Assembly: GCA_016845785.1 (NCBI GenBank)
Contig: JAERSH010000013.1
Location: 1 to 64,000 of the forward strand
Length of the DNA stretch: 64,000 nucleotides
DNA from: Fidelibacterota bacterium
GTDB taxonomy: Bacteria; Fidelibacterota; Marinisomatia; Marinisomatales; TCS55
Reading direction: 5' to 3'
Numbering within the stretch: position 1 is the first letter of the stretch; every line of letters begins with the position of its first letter. The translations under genes and the position numbers were made by a program. The notes under the pieces were generated by a model. It saw only the letters and a program-made list of their open reading frames with translations. It was not told where the DNA came from and ran no database searches. Positions 19,229 to 31,006 of this stretch are shown here, in pieces.

Positions 19229-20839
19229 TTAGACTAACACTTCGGCTTTGTCTTTTTGGGGTAAATCCTTTTCCTGACTAAATAAACAATAATTAAAACT
19301 ATCCCGTAGTGCCTGCCAACTGGCTTCAATGATATTTTCAGATACACCTACGGTGGACCAAGACGCTTTTCCGTCACTGCTTTCCACCAAGACACGCACC
19401 TTTGATTCAGTCCCGGCCCGTTCTTCTAAGACGCGGACTTTATAGTCTACCAATTTCACATGGGCGATCTCCGGATAAAATCGAACCAATGCTTTTTTCA
19501 ATGCCAAATTCAAAGCATTTACCGGGCCGACTCCATCGGCAATGGTATGTTCAACATCCCCATCTACAATTACTTTGAGCATGGCATCGGCGTGCTTGTG
19601 ACCGTCTTCATCATAGTTCACATTGATTCGAGAATCCAGCACATCAAAAAAGGGTTTGAAATGGCCCAACTCTTCCTGGAGGATAAGTTCAAATGATGCT
19701 TCTGCCCCATCAAACTGGTAACCCTCATGCTCTAATAATTTTACTCGGTTAACCACTTTTTTTGTTAGTGCTTTATCTCCATTCAATCGAACACCTAATT
19801 CAGATGCCTTAAAGCGCACATTGCTTTGTCCCGAAAGATCTGAAACCAACACTCGCCGTTGCGCCCCCACAACCTCCGGCTCAATATGTTCATACATGGC
19901 GCTGTTCTTTAGTACCGCACTCACATGGATCCCCCCTTTATGGGCAAAGGCGGATCGCCCTACATAAGCGGCCCGCTGATCGGGAGTCAGATTCATCACC
20001 TCTGACACAAAATGAGAGAGAGATGAAAGTTTGGTCAAGTCCAGATCCTGAAAGGATTTCAACTCCAGTTTCAAAATGAGATTAGGAATAATACTTACTA
20101 AGTTGGCATTTCCACAGCGCTCACCTAATCCATTGATGGTCCCTTGCACATGCCTCACCCCTGCCTCAAAAGCAGCAATAGAATTGGACACTGCCAGTTC
20201 ACTGTCATTATGGGCATGAATGCCCAGGGGAACACTTACATCGTTCTTTACGGCCTGAACAATTCCAAAAATTTCTGAGGGTAACGAACCACCGTTTGTA
20301 TCACAAAGCACGATTGTATCGGCTTCGGCATGTTCCGCCGCTTTCACCATGCGGAGGGCAAATTTGGGATCATCCTTATAACCATTAAAGAAATGTTCCG
20401 CATCAAATATGACATGGCGCCCTTCTAATTTTAAAAATCGGATGGATTCATAAATTAACGCCTCATTTTCTGATTCATCCAATTCCAGCCCCATTTCAGA
20501 ATGAAGCTTCCAGGATTTGCCAAATAGAGACACCACCGATGTTTCCGCTTTCAGCAATGCATTTAGGTTGGCATCCGATTCAATTTTATCCGGGAAGCGC
20601 GCCGTAGAACCAAATGCACAAATGCGTGCATTGGAAAAGGTCTCATTTTGGATCCGCTGAAAAAATGCTTCATCCTTTGGATTGCTCCCGGGCCAACCAC
20701 CTTCGATAAAATCCACACCGAATTCATCTAAGCGCAGAGCGATTCTCACCTTATCCTCAACGGATAGATTCACCCCTTCCCCTTGGGTGCCATCCCTCAA
20801 GGTAGTATCAAAAATTTCAAATGTGTTGGCGTTCGTCAA
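19229..20839 (-). CDS. cimA: (R)-citramalate synthase
   Basis: A 536-residue LeuA-family enzyme condensing pyruvate and acetyl-CoA to citramalate, which leads to 2-oxobutyrate and isoleucine without threonine. [13 protein letters not shown] (11-23) replaces the DGEQAPG of LeuA, and the segments [10 protein letters not shown] and [13 protein letters not shown] are as in CimA. The C-terminal LeuA regulatory dimer domain (about 400-520) suggests isoleucine feedback control. The start is TTG, overlapping the leuD stop, with GAGGA upstream. It is the last gene of the ilv-leu operon. A LeuA proper sits three genes upstream, so two related synthases share the operon. Confidence 0.93.
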
Positions 20840-21486
20840 AGGACCAATTCCTCAAAAACCCATGGGTTCGATTGCCGATGCCTCGTTTCAAACCCTTCAA
20901 TCTTTTCTTTCATTTCCAGCGTTTGACCAATTTCATCCAATCCATTTTGGAGGCAAAACTTTTTATAAGTATCCAATTCAAAAGATATGGATTCACCGCC
21001 AGGGAGTTGAATGGTTTGCCCTTCAAGGTCAACGGATAGATTGAAGCCCGGTGTATCTTTTACTTTTTGAAATAGATCATTCACTACCGATTTGTCCAAC
21101 ACGATTGGAAGAATACCATTCTTGAAGCAGTTATTGTAAAATATGTCCGCAAAACTGGGCGCAATGATGGCACGAAAGCCAAAATCCTGGATGGCCCAAG
21201 GGGCATGTTCCCGACTGGAACCGCATCCAAAATTTTCCTTAGTCAATAAAATTGAAGCACCCAGATATCGATCCTGATTCAATACAAAATCCTGATTCAG
21301 AGGCCGACTTTCGCAAGGCATCCCCGGCTCACCTTTATCCAGATAACGCCACTCATCAAAAAGGTTGGGACCAAAACCCGTCCGCTTGATGGATTTCAAA
21401 AACTGCTTTGGAATGATGGCATCCGTATCAACGTTTGCCCGATCAATGGGAGCAACGAGTCCGGTGAAATTTGAAAATTTTTCCAT
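20836..21486 (-). CDS. leuD: 3-isopropylmalate dehydratase, small subunit
   Basis: A 216-residue swivel subunit of isopropylmalate isomerase. The conserved N-terminal [18 protein letters not shown] (about 14-31) and [13 protein letters not shown] (about 87-99) are present. It pairs with LeuC, encoded 2 bases upstream, and the same pair may also serve citramalate isomerisation for CimA. It overlaps the cimA start. Confidence 0.97.
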
Positions 21487-21488
21487 AA

Positions 21489-22883
21489 TTACGCAGCCTC
21501 CAACATTTCACGCACATCTACAAAATGGCCATGAATGGCCGCTGCTGCTGCCATAATTGGACTCACCAAATGGGTTCTGCCCCCTTGACCCTGACGTCCT
21601 TCAAAATTTCGATTGGATGTAGAAGCACACCGTTCGCCCGGTTCCAATCGATCTGCATTCATGGCCAAACACATAGAACATCCCGGTTCGCGCCATTCAA
21701 ATCCTGCATCTTCAAATACACGGTCCAAACCCTCAGCCTCGGCCTGATCTTTTACCTCTCCCGAGCCCGGCACTACCATGGCCAATTTAATATTCTCAGC
21801 CACACGGTTTCCTTTTACCACTTCTGCTGCTGCCCGTAAATCCTCAATCCGTGAATTGGTACATGAGCCAATAAACACCTTATCCAATTTATAATCGGAT
21901 AGAGATCCACCATCGGATAGTCCCATATAATCCAAGGCATTATCAATGCCATTTTTACCGGAAGTTGGAATCGCATCACCCACATCCATTCCCATTTCCG
22001 GAGATGTACCCCAAGTGATTTGAGGATTAATGCTGTCCGCATCCAATTCGATTACCGAATCGAATTCAGCATCTTCATCTGATTTAAGTGCTTTCCAATA
22101 TTGAACGGCTTGAGTCCATAATTCACCCTTAGGTGAAAATGGCCGCCCCTTCACATATTCAATCGTTTTATCATCCACGGCAATGAGTCCCGCCCGGGCG
22201 CCCGCTTCAATGGCCATATTGCAAACCGTCATTCGTCCTTCCATGGATAGAGATTCAATCATGCTCCCTCCAAATTCGATGGTATGGCCCGTACCGCCGG
22301 CCGTACCGATTTTTTTGATGATGGCCAAAACAAGATCTTTCGCAGTCACCCCCATTTGCAATTGACCATCCACCTTTATCAGCATATTTTTTGATTTTTT
22401 CTGAATCAAACATTGGGTAGCTAGAACGTGCTCCACCTCAGAAGTACCGATACCAAATGCCAAAGCGCCCAGTGCGCCGTGGGTTGCTGTGTGGGAATCG
22501 CCACATACTATTGTCATTCCGGGGAGGGTTGCCCCTTGCTCCGGACCAACCACGTGGACGATCCCTTGGCGAACGTCATCCATGGGAATGTAGGGAACAT
22601 CGAAGGATTTACAATTTTCAACCAAGGTTTCCACTTGGAGGGCAGACACCGGATCGGCAATTCCTTGGTCACGGTTTTCAGTTGGGATGTTATGGTCTGC
22701 CACTGCCAGGTTTGCAGAGGTTCGCCATGGTGTTCGATTGGCCATTCGCAGACCTTCAAATGCCTGTGGAGACGTCACCTCATGGACCAATTGCCTATCA
22801 ATGTACAGGAGTGAATTCCCATTATCGTCTGCATGGACCAAATGGGCATCCCACAATTTATCGTAAAGCGTTTTTCCTGCCAT
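21489..22883 (-). CDS. leuC: 3-isopropylmalate dehydratase, large subunit
   Basis: A 464-residue aconitase-family subunit carrying a [4Fe-4S] cluster. Cluster Cys occur in FIGSCTNSR and in GCSMCLAMN. The N-terminal [17 protein letters not shown] and [13 protein letters not shown] are standard. Length is normal. It converts 2- to 3-isopropylmalate with LeuD. Confidence 0.98.
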
Positions 22884-22884
22884 G

Positions 22885-24453
22885 TTATGGTGCCGTCACT
22901 GCATCAAGCAGTTCTTCTACCTCTCCTTGGATACTGTACTCATTAATGGCTTGGAGATAGGCCATGGCGCTGGCTTCTACAATATCCGTGGAAACGCCCC
23001 GCCCGGAAAAGGATTTTGTACCATTTTTCAATCGGAGATGGGCCTCACCCTGGGCTGAACGCCCAACCGTCACGGATCGAACCTGATACGATTCAATATG
23101 GAATTTCGAATTCAATGCACGGTCAATGGCATTGAAACAGGCATCCACAGGACCATCACCCGTGGCCGACTCTTCTACCAGTTTTTCATTCGATTTGATT
23201 CGAACAGTTGCGGTGGGAATCGTAGTTGTCCCAATATTCACGTGAAGGTAATCCAGAAAATGTCGGTAATCCTTTTGAGCCACTTCTTGTCCCATCAAAA
23301 GGCGAAGGTCATCATCAAATACTTCTTTTTTCTTATCGGCCAATTCAAGGAATCGCTCATAGATGGAATTCAATTCTTCCTCTGATGGGTCGAATCCAAT
23401 CGCCTTCAATCGTGAGATCAATCCATGGCGGCCTGAATGGCGGCCTAAAACAATTTTTGATTCCTGTACACCCACTACTTCCGGATCCATGATTTCGTAG
23501 GTTTTATTGTCCTTCAGCATACCATCCTGATGAATCCCCGATTCATGGGCAAAGGCATTTTCACCCACAATAGCCTTGTTGGGTTGGACGACCATTCCCG
23601 TGAAAGACGACACCATACGACTGGCATTAAAAATTTCGGATGTATTTATATTTGTCTCTACATCCCACAGGTCTTCCCGAACCTTTATGGCCATGGCGAT
23701 TTCTTCTAAAGAAGCATTTCCAGCCCGTTCGCCGATGCCATTGATGGTGCATTCCACCTGTCGAGCCCCATTGGACACAGCTGACAGAGAGTTTGCCACA
23801 GCCAATCCAAGATCGTTATGACAATGAACGCTGATCACCGCATCATCAATATTGGACACACGGCTTTTTAATTCGGCAATTTTTGCACCGAATTCAAGGG
23901 GCATAGTATATCCCGTGGTATCCGGAATATTCACCGTAGTGGCACCAGCGGCGATTACTGCTTCCACAATTTCCGATAGATAACCAATGTCAGTTCGCCC
24001 CGCATCTTCCGGAGAGAACTCCACATCATTCGTGTAAGTCTTGGCCAAGGCTACCGCATCGCAGGAAAGTTTCAGAATATGTTGGCGCTTTTCTTCCAGC
24101 GTTTTTCCATAACGATCACTGCCGAACTTGCCCATCATGTGGATATCCGATGTCCCAGCAAATGTATGAATCCGAAATGTGTCCGCATGCTTCAAAGCAT
24201 CGTAAGCGGCTTTTACATCTTTCTCTACCGTCCGCGCCAATCCGGCTACCACCGTATCCACAGCATCAGCGATCCGCTGAACTGCGTCAAACTGGACTTT
24301 CGATGAAACGGGATAGCCTGCCTCAATCACATCCACATTCAGTTTGTTGAGTTGTTTGGCAATTTCAATTTTCTCCACCAAGTTCAAAGAACAGCCCGGC
24401 GCTTGTTCTCCATCCCGGAGAGTGGTATCAAAAATGACTACTTTATCCTTCAT
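22885..24453 (-). CDS. leuA: 2-isopropylmalate synthase
   Basis: A 522-residue first enzyme of leucine synthesis (2-oxoisovalerate plus acetyl-CoA). [16 protein letters not shown] (8-23), metal His in [15 protein letters not shown], and [13 protein letters not shown] are standard. The C-terminal regulatory domain (about 395-515) is complete, so leucine feedback inhibition is expected. It overlaps leuB by 11 bases. Confidence 0.97.
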
Positions 24454-25552
24454 AAGACATCCTTACCATTTCAATAATCGTACCCGATTTATCTGAACAT
24501 TTTTCCAAAATGAGATCCCGCATACCAGTGGTGCTCACAAGGGAAGTATTTCGGGTGGCAATATCCTCCGTACGAAAACCCAGTTCTAACACTTCACTGA
24601 TGGCATCGTAGACCATGGCCGCTGCTTCGGGCATATCAAACGTGTAATCCAGCATCATGGCCACAGAACCGATCATAGCCAATGGATTGGCCTTGTTCTT
24701 GCCAGCGATTTCCGGCGCCGTACCATGCACCGGTTCATACATGGCATGTTTCTCACCAAGGCTTGCTGATGGGAGCATACCGAGACTGCCTGTGATCATG
24801 GCTGAAATATCGCTCAGTATATCGCCAAAAAGATTTTGGGTAACAATTACATCAAACTGTTTTGGATCCCGAACCAATTGCATGGCCGCATTATCCACAT
24901 ACATTTCGTTTAAGAATACATCAGAGTATTCTTTGTGAACTTCTTCCACCACATCCCGCCAGAATTGGGAACTTTCCAATACATTGGCCTTGTGGACTGA
25001 TGTGACACGGTTGTCCCGTTTTCGTGCCAGTTCAAATGCAGTCCGGGCAATTCGCTCCACTTCATGTTTTGAGTAGGTCAGCGTATTCCATGCTTTATCT
25101 TCATCCATGCCTCTCGGCTGACCAAAATATATCCCGCCTGTTAATTCCCGCACCACCATTACATCTGCTTTTCGGATGACGCTTGGTCGCAATGACGACG
25201 CATCCAAAAGGGCATTGTAAATTTTTGCAGGACGGAGATTGGCATAGAGGCCTAAGACTTCTCTTAATTTTAACAATCCAGCTTCCGGTTTTTTATCGTG
25301 AGGCTGATCATCCCATTTCGGACCGCCCACTGCACCCAATAATACTGCATCCGATTGTTTACATTTTTTTAGCGTTTCATCCGTAACAGGGACGCCGTGC
25401 TTATCGATGGAACACCCACCAAATAATGCTTCATCATAATCAAATTGCACGTTGAAATCCTGCCCCACCAAATCGAGAACAGATAGGGCCGCATCCATGA
25501 TTTCAGGGCCAATGCCGTCTCCGGGCAATACAGTTAAATGATAAGATTTCAT
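24443..25552 (-). CDS. leuB: 3-isopropylmalate dehydrogenase
   Basis: A 369-residue NAD-dependent oxidative decarboxylase in leucine synthesis. PGDGIGPEIMDAAL (10-23), the LLGAVGGPKWD loop, RELTGGIYFGQPRG and a GTAPEIAGKNKANP C-terminal signature identify the decarboxylating family, and the LLKLREVLGLYANLRP segment matches LeuB rather than isocitrate dehydrogenase. Confidence 0.97.
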   Translation of the reverse strand: MKSYHLTVLPGDGIGPEIMDAALSVLDLVGQDFNVQFDYDEALFGGCSIDKHGVPVTDETLKKCKQSDAVLLGAVGGPKWDDQPHDKKPEAGLLKLREVLGLYANLRPAKIYNALLDASSLRPSVIRKADVMVVRELTGGIYFGQPRGMDEDKAWNTLTYSKHEVERIARTAFELARKRDNRVTSVHKANVLESSQFWRDVVEEVHKEYSDVFLNEMYVDNAAMQLVRDPKQFDVIVTQNLFGDILSDISAMITGSLGMLPSASLGEKHAMYEPVHGTAPEIAGKNKANPLAMIGSVAMMLDYTFDMPEAAAMVYDAISEVLELGFRTEDIATRNTSLVSTTGMRDLILEKCSDKSGTIIEMVRMSYEG

Positions 25553-25568
25553 TTTTTCATTCCTTGAA

Positions 25569-26612
25569 TTAAAGGTTTTCCGGTCTTAATGGGCGCAACT
25601 GCTTTCCGGCTTGCCACATTTCTTGATTATTGACCGCCGCCAATTCTTTTTCTAATTGTTCACGGTAGTCCGGTTTTGAATTGGTTTCAATGGATATTCT
25701 TGCCTCTTCGCCACTCAACACACTTTGATAACATTCTTCAATGACAGGTTTCAACGAATCCTTGAATTTGGGTGCCCAATCTAATGCACCACGTTGTGCG
25801 GTTGTTGAACAGTTGGCATACATCCAATCCATTCCATTTTCTGCCACCAGTGGATAAAGGCTTTGGAGCGCTTCTTCAATGGTTTCGTTATAGGCTTCTG
25901 ATGGAGAGTGACCATGTTCTCGAAGCACTTCATACTGGGCTAAAAATGCACCTTGAAGGAGGCCCATTAATACACAGCGTTCGCCTGTAAGGTCGCTATG
26001 GACTTCCTTTTCAAATGTGGTTTCAAATAAATGACCAGAACCAAAGGCAAAGGCAGTGGCGATACAGCGATCTTTTGCATTGCCCGTATAATCCTGATGA
26101 ATGGCAAATGATGCATTAATACCACGACCATCCAAAAAATGATTCCGAACCGTAAGACCACTTCCTTTCGGTGCGACCAAAATTACATCCACATTTTCTG
26201 GGGGAACAATTTGGGTGTCTTCGTGAAAAACGACGCCAAAACCATGGGAAAAATAAATGGCATCCCCATCATTTAGATTCGCCTTCACCATGGGCCATAA
26301 TTGAATTTGGGCTGCATCTGAAACTAAAAATTGAATGATTTTTCCACGCTGAGTTGCTTCTTCAAGCTCAAATAAATTTTCTCCTTCAACCCATCCATCA
26401 GCCAAGGCATTTTCCCAACTTTTTCCTCGACGCAATCCTAAAATCACATTAAACCCCTGATCCCGCATATTGAGGCCTTGTCCTCGTCCCTGAGGGCCGT
26501 AACCCAAAATAGCAGTTACATCATTTTTTAAAATGTTTTTACATTTTTCGATGGGGTAATCGGATCGCTCCACAATAGTTTCATGGTGTCCGTTGATATT
26601 GATTTCTTTCAT
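25569..26612 (-). CDS. ilvC: Ketol-acid reductoisomerase
   Basis: A 347-residue NADPH-dependent enzyme that rearranges and reduces acetolactate or acetohydroxybutyrate. The Rossmann loop AILGYGPQGRGQGLNMRDQG (about 34-53) is followed by GLRRGKSWENA, whose basic residues fit NADPH use. A knotted C-terminal domain follows with SDLTGERCVLMG. The GPQGRGQ loop resembles the form seen in Bacteroidota-like genomes. Confidence 0.95.
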   Translation of the reverse strand: MKEININGHHETIVERSDYPIEKCKNILKNDVTAILGYGPQGRGQGLNMRDQGFNVILGLRRGKSWENALADGWVEGENLFELEEATQRGKIIQFLVSDAAQIQLWPMVKANLNDGDAIYFSHGFGVVFHEDTQIVPPENVDVILVAPKGSGLTVRNHFLDGRGINASFAIHQDYTGNAKDRCIATAFAFGSGHLFETTFEKEVHSDLTGERCVLMGLLQGAFLAQYEVLREHGHSPSEAYNETIEEALQSLYPLVAENGMDWMYANCSTTAQRGALDWAPKFKDSLKPVIEECYQSVLSGEEARISIETNSKPDYREQLEKELAAVNNQEMWQAGKQLRPLRPENL

Positions 26613-26625
26613 GGTTTTTAATTCC

Positions 26626-27189
26626 TTAATTATGATATGTGTGAATTTGCTCCGGCTGCCAATTTACTTCTTCAGCCGTTGCATTAATTTTTTCAGATGA
26701 TACTTTGTGGGTTCTTCCCCGGCGCATAGACATTTTTCCTGTGCGCATGATTTCGGAAATATTGAATGGTGCTAAAGATTCAACCAATTCGTCAATGACT
26801 TCTTTTTCGTCCGCTGTTTCAATGATGACTGTATCCAATCCCATATCCACGATACGGGCGCCAAATTTTTTCACCAATTGATTCAATTCATTTAATTTAT
26901 CCGGGCCAGCCTGAACCTTGATAAAAATAAATTCCCGCGTGACGCAGGCCAATTCAGATACATCTTTTACAGCCACCACATTCACCAGATTCAATAAATT
27001 GAAATAAATATTCCCTCTTTTGCGCCTATCCACTTCATTGGCTACGATGGTCATCCGACTGATGCCAGATGTTTCGCTCTTTCCAACTACGAGGCTTTCT
27101 ATATTAAAATTTCTTCGGCGAAATAAACTGGCAATCCGATTCAACACACCTGGTTTATCTTCAACTAAAGCGATTAATGTCTGTTTCAT
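26626..27189 (-). CDS. ilvN: Acetolactate synthase, regulatory subunit
   Basis: A 187-residue ACT-domain protein. MKQTLIALVEDKPGVLNRI opens the first ACT domain (1-80), with the valine-binding loop region and SLVVGKSETSGISRMTIV. A second ACT-like domain spans about 85-160. It activates IlvB and confers valine feedback. It overlaps ilvB by 4 bases. Confidence 0.95.
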   Translation of the reverse strand: MKQTLIALVEDKPGVLNRIASLFRRRNFNIESLVVGKSETSGISRMTIVANEVDRRKRGNIYFNLLNLVNVVAVKDVSELACVTREFIFIKVQAGPDKLNELNQLVKKFGARIVDMGLDTVIIETADEKEVIDELVESLAPFNISEIMRTGKMSMRRGRTHKVSSEKINATAEEVNWQPEQIHTYHN

Positions 27190-28928
27190 AAGACAGATTC
27201 CTTTTTTTCAGATGGTAATTTTCCATTGGATGGTTTCACGGGCCTTTCGATCATTTCATGAAGATCTGCACCGGTGGGTACCATGGGATATACCATATCA
27301 TGTTTTTCAACCACAAATTCAATAAGAGACGGTCCGGATTGTTTTTGTGCTTTTCTCATGGTCGGAATAACATCGCCCAATTCCTCTACCCGAAAAGCTT
27401 CTAATCCGTAAGCACCGGCCAATTTTACATAATCGGGACTGAGTATTGGCGTTTCTGAATACCGCGCTTCATAGAACATTTCTTGCCATTGTCGCACCAT
27501 CCCCAAATATCCGTTATTGATGATCGCAATGTTGATATTCCGGTTTTCCTGTACGGCAGTCCCCAATTCGGTCATGGTCATTTGAAAGCTACCATCTCCT
27601 ACAATAATCCATATCTCCCGATCCTTTTCATAGAAACTGGCTCCAATCCCTGCAGGAAGACTGAATCCCATGGTGCCCAATCCGCCAGACGTAAGCAATG
27701 TTCTTGGATCTTCATGTTCGTAATACTGCGCCTCTAACATTTGGTGTTGGCCTACATCAGTAATGATAAGGGCATCCCCCTTTGTCCCTTCCCAAATCTT
27801 CCGGATCACATGAGCACCCATCAACATTTCTGTATCCTGATGAATGATATCTTTCCCCTTAGATTCTTTTCGCCAACTATCAATTCGTCTGAGCCATGAT
27901 CGATTATCTTGCTTTTTCATCAATGGATTGACCTGGGATAAAACTGTCTGCAAGTCACCATGGATGGGCAATTCTACATGAATATTTTTATTGATCTCTG
28001 CTGGATCAATTTCAATATGGATCTTTTTTGAATTCGGTGAATAATTTTCCAGTTTACCCGTCACGCGATCATCAAAGCGCATGCCGCAAGCGATCAACAG
28101 ATCTGCTTCTTGGATGGCTTGATTCACCCAAGTTTCACCATGCATCCCCATCATGCCAAAGACCAATGGGTGGCTGGCCGGCACACCACCAATGCCTAAT
28201 AAAGTGGTGCCAATAGGTATATTGGCCTGCTCAGATAACTGAATCACTTGGCCTGTCGCTTCCGACATTATGATGCCATGTCCGGCCAAAATGAATGGCC
28301 GTTCCGCTGCCTCAATCATATGAATCAATGTATTGATTTGTTCATCTGTTGCGCCCGGTGGATTCACGACACCTGGCATATCTATTTCATTTTCGGGATA
28401 TTGAAAATCGATCGATTGGTTTTGAATATCCTTTGGAATATCCACCAATACCGGCCCCGGACGTCCACTGCGGGCCACGTGAAATGCTTCTTTAATTGTA
28501 TCCGCCAATTCATGAATGTCCATGACAAGATAATTATGTTTTGTGACAGGGATGGTTGATCCAGTGATATCAATTTCCTGGAAGGCATCAGATCCGATAA
28601 CGGAGGAGGGTACTTGGCCCGTAATGCATACGATCGGTACGGAATCCATCATGGCTGTTGCAAGGCCTGTAATCATATTGGTTGCACCCGGACCGGATGT
28701 GGCCATAGCAACCCCCACTTTTCCGCTGGCACGAGCAAATCCATCTGCCATGTGAGTGGCACCTTGTTCATGACGAACGAGAACATGATGAATTTTGTCC
28801 CTATATTTTTCTAGGGCATCATAAGCGGGCAAAATGGCGCCGCCGGGATAGCCAAATACAACATCAACTTGTTCTTTGACCACACATTCCCAAATGATCT
28901 CAGCACCGGTTAATTTTCTTTCATTCAT
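27186..28928 (-). CDS. ilvB: Acetolactate synthase, catalytic subunit
   Basis: A 580-residue thiamine-diphosphate enzyme making acetolactate and acetohydroxybutyrate. The N-terminal VDVVFGYPGGAILPAYDAL contains the FAD/TPP-domain start, with catalytic Glu in RHEQGATHMADGFARA. The C-terminal TPP motif is GDGSFQMTMTELGTAVQENR followed by INNGYLGMVRQWQ. Length and motifs are canonical. Confidence 0.98.
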   Translation of the reverse strand: MNERKLTGAEIIWECVVKEQVDVVFGYPGGAILPAYDALEKYRDKIHHVLVRHEQGATHMADGFARASGKVGVAMATSGPGATNMITGLATAMMDSVPIVCITGQVPSSVIGSDAFQEIDITGSTIPVTKHNYLVMDIHELADTIKEAFHVARSGRPGPVLVDIPKDIQNQSIDFQYPENEIDMPGVVNPPGATDEQINTLIHMIEAAERPFILAGHGIIMSEATGQVIQLSEQANIPIGTTLLGIGGVPASHPLVFGMMGMHGETWVNQAIQEADLLIACGMRFDDRVTGKLENYSPNSKKIHIEIDPAEINKNIHVELPIHGDLQTVLSQVNPLMKKQDNRSWLRRIDSWRKESKGKDIIHQDTEMLMGAHVIRKIWEGTKGDALIITDVGQHQMLEAQYYEHEDPRTLLTSGGLGTMGFSLPAGIGASFYEKDREIWIIVGDGSFQMTMTELGTAVQENRNINIAIINNGYLGMVRQWQEMFYEARYSETPILSPDYVKLAGAYGLEAFRVEELGDVIPTMRKAQKQSGPSLIEFVVEKHDMVYPMVPTGADLHEMIERPVKPSNGKLPSEKKESVL

Positions 28929-28937
28929 TTTTATATT

Positions 28938-30608
28938 TTACCTCAATACGGCACCGGTATTTGCTGATGTTACCATCCGAGCATACCGTCCTAAATATCC
29001 TGTTTTTATTTTGGGTTCAAATTCTGGAAGTGCATCCAATCGGGATTGAATGTCTTCATCACTTAATTCTACATGTAAACTTTTTTCGGGGATGTTGATA
29101 TGGATTGTATCCCCTTCGTTTATGGCGGCGATGGGACCGTAAACCGCTGCTTCCGGAGAAATGTGACCGATACAGGCACCACGAGTGCCACCAGAGAACC
29201 TGCCGTCGGTAATCAGGGCCACTTTATCACCCAACCCCATCCCCATTATGGCACTGGTTGGAGATAACATTTCTGGCATTCCGGGACCCCCTTTCGGTCC
29301 TTCGTAACGGATGACGACCACGTCTCCAGGTTGAACTTCTTTCCCTAAAATACCGGAAAGGGCATCTTCTTGTGATTCATAGATTCGAGCCGGACCGGAA
29401 TGAACCAGCATATCCGGTTCAACAGCAGCGGTCTTTACCACCGATCCATCCGGTGCGATATTTCCAAATAAAATGGCCAAACCCCCTTCTTGAGAATAAG
29501 GGTCGTCCACGGTACGAATCACTCGCCCATCCTTGGATTGTGCGCCATCAATATTTTCACCCAATGATTTTCCCGTCACTGTTGGACTATCCAAAACCAA
29601 GGTGTCTTCTTTTTTAGAAAGTTCAGATAAAATGGCCGAAATGCCGCCGGCCCGATCCACATCCTCCATATGGACGTCTTTCGTGGCGGGACTCACTTTG
29701 CAGATGTAAGGCGTCTTCTTGGCAATTTCATTCAATTCTTTTAAGTCAAATTCCAGTCCAGCTTCAATGGCGATGGCCAATGTATGTAAAACGGTATTGG
29801 TGCTGCCACCCATGGCCATATCCAATGCAAAGGCATTTCGAAGTGATTCTTCTGTAACTAAATCTCGTGGTTTAATATTTTTTTCAATAAGATCAACAAT
29901 TCGCACTCCCGCTTGGCGAACCAATCCCATGCGTCCTTCATCCACAGCCAAAATGGAGCCATTCCCCGGGAGGGCGATGCCAAGCGCTTCCATCAAACAA
30001 TTCATAGAGTTTGCGGTGAACATTCCGGAGCAGGATCCACAGGTTGGGCATCCTTCTTTTTCTAATTCGGTGAGGGATGCTTCAGAAATGACACCGGATT
30101 TCACTTGGCCTACACCTTCAAAAACAGAAATTAAATCTACTTTTTGACCATTGATTTGCCCCGCTTTCATGGGTCCACCGGAGACAAATACAGTGGGAAT
30201 ATTTAATCGAACCGCCGCCATAAGCATCCCCGGAACGATTTTATCACAATTGGTGATACAAACCAGTCCATCCAGGCGATGGGCTTCGGCTACGGTTTCC
30301 ACGCTATCTGCAATCAGTTCGCGACTGGCTAAAGAATAGCGCATGCCGATATGACCCATGGCAATCCCGTCATCCACACCGATAGTGTTGAATTCGAAAG
30401 GAACACCGCCGGCCTCCCGGATGGCTTTTTTGGCCACCTTACCAAATTCCTGTAAGTGGACATGGCCCGGAATTAGGTCGATATATGAATTGGCCACACC
30501 GATAAACGGTTTGTCAAAATCCGATTCGGCCTGGATGACGCCCGTGGCCCGGAGGAGACTCCGGTGGGGGGCGTGTTCAAATCCTTTTTTTATTGTATCT
30601 GATCGCAT
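28938..30608 (-). CDS. ilvD: Dihydroxy-acid dehydratase
   Basis: A 556-residue iron-sulfur dehydratase giving 2-oxoisovalerate and 2-oxo-3-methylvalerate. Cluster Cys lie in [10 protein letters not shown] and [17 protein letters not shown]. The N-terminal [16 protein letters not shown] and C-terminal [21 protein letters not shown] are standard. It is the first structural gene of the ilv-leu-cimA operon and is preceded by a 142-base leader with alternative hairpins and a Leu/Ile/Val-rich peptide. Confidence 0.98.
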
Positions 30609-30628
30609 TTATGCTTCCATCTTTTTTC

Positions 30629-30656
30629 AAAAACAATGGACGCGCTAAAAGTCCAA
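30629..30656 (-). terminator. Attenuator hairpin 3:4 before ilvD
   Basis: On the minus strand TTGGAC (30656-30651) faces GTCCA (30641-30637), giving a 5-bp core with a 9-base loop. It is followed by TTGTTTTTG and lies about 20 bases before the ilvD start. The stem is short for a terminator. Its importance comes from strand 3 (TTGGAC, with CGGTC at 30664-30660) also being able to pair with strand 2 in the leader-peptide region. Confidence 0.6.
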
Positions 30657-30747
30657 TCAGACCGGATATTGGTTTGGGTAGGATGTACGGATTGGGGGAG
30701 GGCTTTATCGTCCCGCCGTCTTCTTCACCTACCGTTTGTTTACTATT

Positions 30748-30776
30748 CGGTCAGGCGACTTGGACGGCGAGTCCAA
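30748..30776 (-). promoter_or_regulatory. Leader hairpin 1:2 and antiterminator strand
   Basis: TTGGAC (30776-30771) and GTCCAA (30765-30760) form a 6-bp hairpin with a 5-base loop at the end of the leader-peptide gene. Strand 2 can instead pair with strand 3: GTCCAA with TTGGAC (30656-30651), and GACCG (30752-30748) with CGGTC (30664-30660). That 11-bp helix would exclude the terminator. Confidence 0.65.
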
Positions 30777-30900
30777 TAATCACGAGAATAAGGAGGTTAA
30801 TAATGAGCGAATTAATTCGCAAAGATTCAATATCAATACTCAGATTGCGCGCACCGATTGGGCCGCTTGGGATAAGTTTCGCTGATATTGTGTTTTTCAT
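30751..30900 (-). CDS. ilv operon leader peptide (branched-chain attenuator)
   Basis: A 49-residue frame from the ATG at 30900 to the TGA at 30753-30751. Its last 18 residues read LIINLLILVIIGLAVQVA, with 13 Leu, Ile or Val. The stop sits between two overlapping RNA structures that lead to ilvD. In classical attenuation, a ribosome stalled on Leu/Ile/Val codons covers strand 1 and frees strand 2 to pair with strand 3, so transcription continues. Shine-Dalgarno pairing is weak (AAGAG directly before the ATG). A small membrane peptide is the alternative, but the matching hairpins favour the leader reading. Confidence 0.7.
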   Translation of the reverse strand: MKNTISAKLIPSGPIGARNLSIDIESLRINSLIINLLILVIIGLAVQVA

Positions 30901-30917: not shown

Positions 30918-30939
30918 CGTTATCGACCTTGCGATAACG
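30918..30939. promoter_or_regulatory. 8-bp inverted repeat upstream of the ilv leader peptide
   Basis: CGTTATCG and CGATAACG are separated by 6 bases, ending 18 bases before the leader ATG. The site has the size of a dimeric regulator operator, but could instead be a 5'-UTR hairpin. Confidence 0.5.
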
Positions 30940-31006
30940 TGGGCAGAAGATTAGCTAAGCAATCCTACGCGTTACAATACTTTTTTTACAATTCAGAAAA
31001 TAAATT

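Follow-up and report, generated by a model that had tools for sequence, protein, structure and literature searches.

A putative ribosome-sensing attenuator, most likely with a translational output, precedes the ilv-leu-cimA operon of a Fidelibacterota bacterium

A short leader ORF and the RNA that follows it, located directly upstream of a nine-gene biosynthetic operon in the window (the whole stretch of 64,000 nucleotides analysed here), very probably form a ribosome-mediated branched-chain amino-acid attenuator of that operon. The conserved codons of the leader, together with two co-varying and mutually exclusive RNA folds, point to a device that senses the ribosome and acts on the operon as a whole, and its output, as sequence comparison and modelling suggest, seems on balance most likely to be translational.

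Results

The operon and its leader ORF

The operon ilvD-ilvB-ilvN-ilvC-leuB-leuA-leuC-leuD-cimA occupies positions 19229-30608 of the minus strand, with ilvD (28938..30608) as its first gene and nth, encoding endonuclease III, upstream of the leader. All nine genes score above the cut-offs of NCBIfam models (TIGR00110, TIGR00118, NF008864/TIGR00119, TIGR00465, TIGR00169, NF002086/TIGR00973, TIGR00170, TIGR00171 and TIGR00977), in agreement with the initial annotation, which had named a full ilv-leu-cimA operon in an FCB-like genome; the genome belongs to the Fidelibacterota (formerly Candidatus Neomarinimicrobiota).

The leader ORF (minus strand, 30751..30900) encodes a peptide of 49 residues, MKNTISAKLIPSGPIGARNLSIDIESLRINSLIINLLILVIIGLAVQVA, and ends 142 bases upstream of the ilvD start at 30608. 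As had been claimed, 13 of its 18 closing residues are isoleucine, leucine or valine (C-terminal end LIINLLILVIIGLAVQVA; SLIINLLILVIIGLAVQVA up to the stop codon), and codons for the very products of the operon, Ile, Leu and Val, thus lie directly upstream of it. Among all ORFs of 15-80 residues in the 64 kb window, only this one reaches 13/18, and no such ORF arises in 5,000 shuffles that preserve the dinucleotides of the intergenic region. A chance origin of the leader ORF is excluded.

Upstream of the leader ORF on the minus strand, TTGTAA (30972..30977) and TAATCT (30948..30953) are tentative candidates for the -35 and -10 elements, with a presumed transcription start near 30941. A strict promoter scan gave no match, and the arrangement TTG-n17/18-TAnnnT recurs at the same place in relatives (TTGCAC..TACATT in L013, TTGACA..TAACAT in L014). 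Near the presumed transcript start, just upstream of the ORF, lies a 5' stem-loop (minus strand, 30918..30939; CGTTATCG/CGATAACG), which could perhaps stabilise the mRNA. Its stem is kept with differing sequences in many relatives, such as L004 (CCTTGTTATT/AATAACAAGG), L009 (GTCACATTATCC/GGATAATGTGAT) and L048 (CCGGGTTTT/AAAGCCCGG).

Conservation of the leader across genomes

An ilvD match at E<=1e-120 is found in 63 of 245 Fidelibacterota genomes, and upstream of nearly every full-length ilvD of the phylum lies an ORF that has 8-14 I/L/V per 15 residues and mostly ends 58-163 bases before the gene. The exceptions are two distant paralogues without a clear ORF (L093, L094) and two loci with an ORF further off (L079, L086). 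Ignavibacteriota, Calditrichota and some MAGs labelled Bacteroidota have leaders of this same kind before ilvD, and I/L/V-rich ORFs also stand before ilvD in examples from Chlorobiota, Chloroflexota and Acidobacteriota. Contigs of Chloroflexota, CSSED10-310 and Holophagales (L113, L116, L117, L121, L123, L137 and L174) likewise carry an I/L/V-rich ORF before ilvD. Searched with a covariance model built on the window-type RNA, the 245 phylum genomes give 22 matches, all 22 at ilvD, and the window's own genome gives a single match at E<=1. The leader ORF and its place before ilvD are conserved over the phylum.

The Leu/Ile/Val run itself is also kept. Across 11 relatives, differences within the run number 136, 10 and 176 at codon positions 1, 2 and 3; position 2, at which the codons for I, L and V agree, is nearly fixed, which argues that these residues are maintained by selection at the codon level. 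Additionally, the last ten leader codons are identical in 90/90 within-genus comparisons, third positions included, as would be expected of a constraint at the RNA level.

The distribution of the operon is uneven. Eight of 13 same-genus genomes (G001-G005, G009, G010 and G012), one of which is 95% complete, have neither ilvD nor full-length ilvC, which indicates that branched-chain synthesis is patchy and that genomes often lose or acquire the operon as a unit. Members of f7 (L045, L046, L047-L049, L054, L060) are scattered in the IlvD tree, two of them inside the window's family f1 and two with f16, which suggests that operon and leader were transferred together. Two f20 genomes hold two ilvD copies, each with its own I/L/V leader (L051 and L062 in G186; L057 and L063 in G184). 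At L037 (G115) the ilvD reading jumps to the 3' part of the gene after about 150 bases, probably because of a deletion within the gene or a join made in assembly.

Two mutually exclusive RNA folds

Minimum free-energy folds of various relatives take one of two alternatives (all positions on the minus strand). Fold A is one long hairpin that joins 30771-30748, which takes in the end of the leader and its stop codon, to 30734-30712. Its 5' arm, CUCGCCGUC-caag-UCGCCUGACCG (30748..30771), spans the stop codon, and its 3' arm, segment 3, reads CGGUAGGUGA-agaa-GACGGCGGG (30712..30734), as indicated by co-variation and by the MFE fold of the window leader. Fold B begins with helix P0 in the last codons (30783-30755), where segment 1 (GUGAUUAUUGGAC, 30771..30783, codons V-I-I-G-L) pairs with segment 2a (30755..30765), the latter overlapping the 5' arm of hairpin A. 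There follows helix 2b:5, formed by segment 2b (GACCGAAUA, 30744..30752) and segment 5 (UAUCCGGUC, 30660..30668), which encloses the pairing of the segment 3 core GGUAGG (30728..30733) with segment 4, CCUACC (30677..30682). Folds A and B share bases and are therefore mutually exclusive.

RNAalifold on a first alignment returned hairpin A only, because A and B share columns and L011 and L012 were misaligned; we therefore compared the energy of each helix formed with its own partner against that with partners swapped among species, a duplex test that depends little on the alignment. Three near-duplicates were removed to leave 18 sequences, the statistics otherwise ignoring relatedness, and a covariance-model alignment (A2), being fitted to A and including matches on the reverse strand, was left out of the pair counts. 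Own partners are favoured in every helix: P0 (-8.7 versus -7.2 kcal/mol, p<5e-5), hairpin A in its lower (-12.7 versus -10.3) and upper part (-9.3 versus -8.0 kcal/mol; p<5e-5), 2b:5 (-7.9 versus -5.0 kcal/mol, p<5e-5) and segments 3:4 (-8.8 versus -7.0 kcal/mol, p=1e-4). Within the nine f1 members, P0, upper A, 2b:5 and segments 3:4 remain at p=0.0017-0.022, helix 2b:5 having p=0.0017, and the lower part of A does not vary. Compensatory pairs occur in P0 (GUGAU:GUCGC, GUCA:UGAC, CUGCU:AGCAG, CUAUUA:UAAUAG), in hairpin A (CGCCGUC:GACGGCG, CGUCGUC:GACGACG, CGCUGUC:GACAGCG, UCCGUC:GACGGA, UCCGUU:AACGGA) and in segments 3:4 (GGUAGG:CCUACC, GCAGG:CCUGC, ACAGG:CCUGU). The leader thus holds helices that exclude one another and begin in the regulatory codons, P0 against A against 2b:5 with 3:4, all of them co-varying.

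This architecture only partly coincides with the strands drawn by the initial annotation. Its strands 1 and 2, TTGGAC/GTCCAA, lie at 30776-30771 and 30765-30760, in the co-varying P0 region. Its match between strands 2 and 3 is present as written, and the GACCG:CGGTC half is real, being part of the co-varying helix 2b:5 (GACCGAAUA:UAUCCGGUC), but the TTGGAC half is not consistently kept (lost in L003, L004, L007 and L049). It overlooked the long hairpin CGCCGUC..CCUGACCG : CGGUAGG..GACGGCG and the GGUAGG:CCUACC helix.

Terminators in the two ilvD lineages

Although titled a translational attenuator, the element was initially reasoned to work by termination: a hairpin of strands 3 and 4 (UGGAC-uuuuagcgc-GUCCA, minus strand, 30637..30655) followed by the U-run TTGTTTTT (30636-30629) was read as the terminator, in the exact logic of enterobacterial ilv/leu attenuation. 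Hairpin and U-run exist as described, but they are not a conserved terminator. Specifically, the hairpin has 5 bp, a 9-base loop, an energy of -4.5 kcal/mol and a U-tail score of 3.5, is not listed by a terminator scan of the window, and shows no co-variation among the nine f1 members (own versus swapped, p=0.17). With a strong terminator defined by dG<=-7 and a U-tail score >=3.2, none precedes ilvD in the nine f1 leaders, the window's included, and only one does in the 37 leaders of the window's ilvD lineage (f1, f7, f8, f10, f16, f20, f30). The likeness to the enterobacterial logic is therefore not exact, the terminator being unconserved even in the genus.

In the other ilvD lineage of the phylum (f23, f26-f29), 24 of 25 leaders carry a strong U-tract terminator; the corresponding counts are 2/3 for Chlorobiota loci and 0/7 for loci of Ignavibacteriota/Calditrichota type. 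In the IlvD tree, sampled f23/f26-f29 proteins are separate from the window's lineage, which joins the window's class, f30, Ignavibacteriota, Calditrichota and Chlorobiota. The f23 and f26-f29 leaders L073-L092 encode peptides of 21-35 residues, for example MKQLLLHILPLTIILIPGEKG, and carry GAAGGGG / CCCCTTC / GAAGGGG-U9; by their sequence they read as textbook three-segment transcription attenuators of ilvD within the same phylum.

Classical transcription attenuation, with the 30655-30637 hairpin and its U-run as intrinsic terminator and the 2:3 pairing as antiterminator, has in its favour that both elements exist in the window and that the phylum's other ilvD lineage is clearly built in that manner. 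Set against the small, unlisted and non-co-varying hairpin and the near absence of strong terminators from the family and lineage, we consider it unlikely for this leader, and the initial annotation was probably wrong about the terminator. Its broader claim of ribosome-mediated I/L/V attenuation is strongly supported, because the ORF and its position are conserved, the codons are selected, the exclusive helices co-vary and the operon fits.

Output at the ilvD ribosome-binding site

The presumed ilvD ribosome-binding region, AUGGAAG (minus strand, 30614..30620), can pair with GUCCAU (30641-30636). A GUCCAU:AUGGAAG hairpin blocking the ilvD Shine-Dalgarno sequence was considered as a candidate and rejected; it occurs in the window and some relatives, with no support from co-variation in f1 (p=0.84).

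When the RNA downstream of the ribosome is modelled with equilibrium energies, without co-transcriptional kinetics and with assumed ribosome footprints, opening the ilvD ribosome-binding site costs on average 11.4 kcal/mol with the ribosome past the stop codon and 5.9 kcal/mol with the ribosome stalled in the run, in a set of 19 leaders from f20, f30, f10, f8 and Ignavibacteriota/Calditrichota. In the same set, the stalled state costs 9.9 kcal/mol with swapped leader ends versus 5.9 with the own end (p<5e-5). The window's family moves in the same direction in most of 12 leaders, from 6.8 to 3.8 kcal/mol; here the stalled own and swapped values (3.8 versus 4.3 kcal/mol) do not differ significantly (p=0.10), partly because the leader ends of relatives are almost identical. 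L005 and L007 show almost no modelled effect, and in three f8 leaders the trend runs the other way. For the leaders that bear a terminator, the modelled probability of the terminator stem falls from 0.77 to 0.45 through their own leader end, against 0.67 with a swapped one (p=1.5e-4); the effect of the leader end on the ribosome-binding site is not significant there (p=0.09). The contrast between the two sets suggests one sensor with two outputs, and in the window's genome the output would be a blocked ribosome-binding site.

From this arrangement we infer both ribosome stalling and its ON/OFF polarity, which would run as follows. The ribosome would translate the 49-codon leader and, when Ile-, Leu- or Val-tRNA is short, stall in the I/L/V run, covering segment 1 and part of 2a. 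Segment 2b would then be free to pair with segment 5, and segment 3 would pair with segment 4; held in 2b:5, segment 5 would be kept off the ilvD ribosome-binding region, and ilvD would be translated. When the tRNAs are plentiful, the ribosome would reach the stop codon inside segment 2 and cover 2a and 2b, releasing segment 5, upon which the sequence just upstream of ilvD would fold on itself and hinder initiation. Hairpin A (2:3) would be the other fold open to the free leader, and it too would leave segment 5 unpaired. We further propose that ilvD leaders in Fidelibacterota, Ignavibacteriota and Calditrichota act on the translation start via such a relay of five or six segments (1:2, 2:3, 2b:5, 3:4 and 5:ribosome-binding site) and that the other lineage uses terminators, so that two outputs would coexist in one phylum; the chances of this joint proposal appear evenly balanced.

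Rho-dependent attenuation, in which the C-rich, G-poor stretch 30711-30665 would serve as a Rho entry site, exposed in one of the folds and masked by pairing in the other, is a less likely alternative still than an intrinsic terminator. Rho is encoded in the genome; in the window, as in most relatives, segment 4 is C-rich together with the sequence on either side of it; and most linkers contain more C than G, those of f20 most clearly. Selection for an unpaired linker could equally give such G-poverty, however, and in sister families the modelled leader end acts directly on the ribosome-binding site. That the leader ORF encodes a small membrane peptide with its own function, the RNA structure being secondary, would agree with its hydrophobic C-terminal half and its conservation within the family, but is very improbable, as the peptide end varies freely while the RNA is kept (the stop codon shifts inside the conserved RNA among relatives, after GLPS, GLVV or GLAVQVA), the C-terminal conservation extends to third codon positions, and the ORF stays in its place before ilvD across the phylum. 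Least probable of all is a small-molecule riboswitch, to which a conserved structured RNA before a biosynthetic operon might point, since an Rfam scan of the window region gave no match at E<=1, the conserved RNA lies within and immediately after the I/L/V-codon ORF, and the alignment has no large fixed unpaired pocket.

Discussion

Amino-acid attenuation, the standard textbook case of transcription coupled to translation, has been described mostly in proteobacteria and actinobacteria. If the translational reading proposed here is correct, the attenuation principle would extend to the initiation of translation for an entire biosynthetic operon in an uncultured phylum, the basis being a terminator-less leader with both folds fixed by co-variation. 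The two ilvD lineages would form a natural pair, with the same sensor and the same gene but two outputs, for asking when bacteria use which output, and segment swaps together with the compensatory pairs make the attenuator model directly testable in a reporter strain. A literature search returned no account of these leaders in Fidelibacterota, Ignavibacteriota or Calditrichota, although an earlier mention of some is possible. Scanning 20 related loci at Rfam gathering scores returned nothing relevant (one unrelated SAM riboswitch), and no covariance model match assigns the window's leader to ilvB-OMG or another Rfam leader.

The enterobacterial ilvGMEDA, ilvBN and leu operons are controlled by transcription attenuators with an I/L/V-rich leader peptide and competing helices. 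The window's leader resembles them, as they are generally described, in its I/L/V-rich peptide, its competing helices and its control of ilv/leu genes, and differs in having no conserved terminator, a longer leader ORF and an additional helix, 2b:5, that encloses 3:4. The Corynebacterium ilvBNC attenuator and the ilvB-II and ilvB-OMG motifs, which stand before ilvB and have been described as attenuating transcription, likewise place a uORF enriched in branched-chain codons before an ilv operon (PMC10272879, PMC11857589). Unlike these, the window's leader precedes ilvD and matches no Rfam model. In the actinobacterial LEU element upstream of leuA, a leucine-codon run pairs with the Shine-Dalgarno box, and there is a pseudoknot; mutations did not fit classical attenuation, and its mechanism is unsettled (PMC1262725). 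Both have a leader peptide, with a leucine run and a Shine-Dalgarno-box structure instead of a terminator in LEU (PMC1262725), whereas the window's leader has a relay of segments between the codons and the start site.

In the erm-type translational attenuators of antibiotic-resistance genes, a drug-stalled leader ribosome frees the start site of the next gene (PMC8274638). A stalled leader ribosome would similarly free a sequestered start site in the window, except that uncharged tRNA would take the place of the drug as signal and the target would be a nine-gene biosynthetic operon. Closest in gene and phylum are the f23 and f26-f29 ilvD leaders of Fidelibacterota, which share the short I/L/V leader but belong to a different ilvD lineage and, in 24 of 25 cases, carry the strong U-tract terminator.
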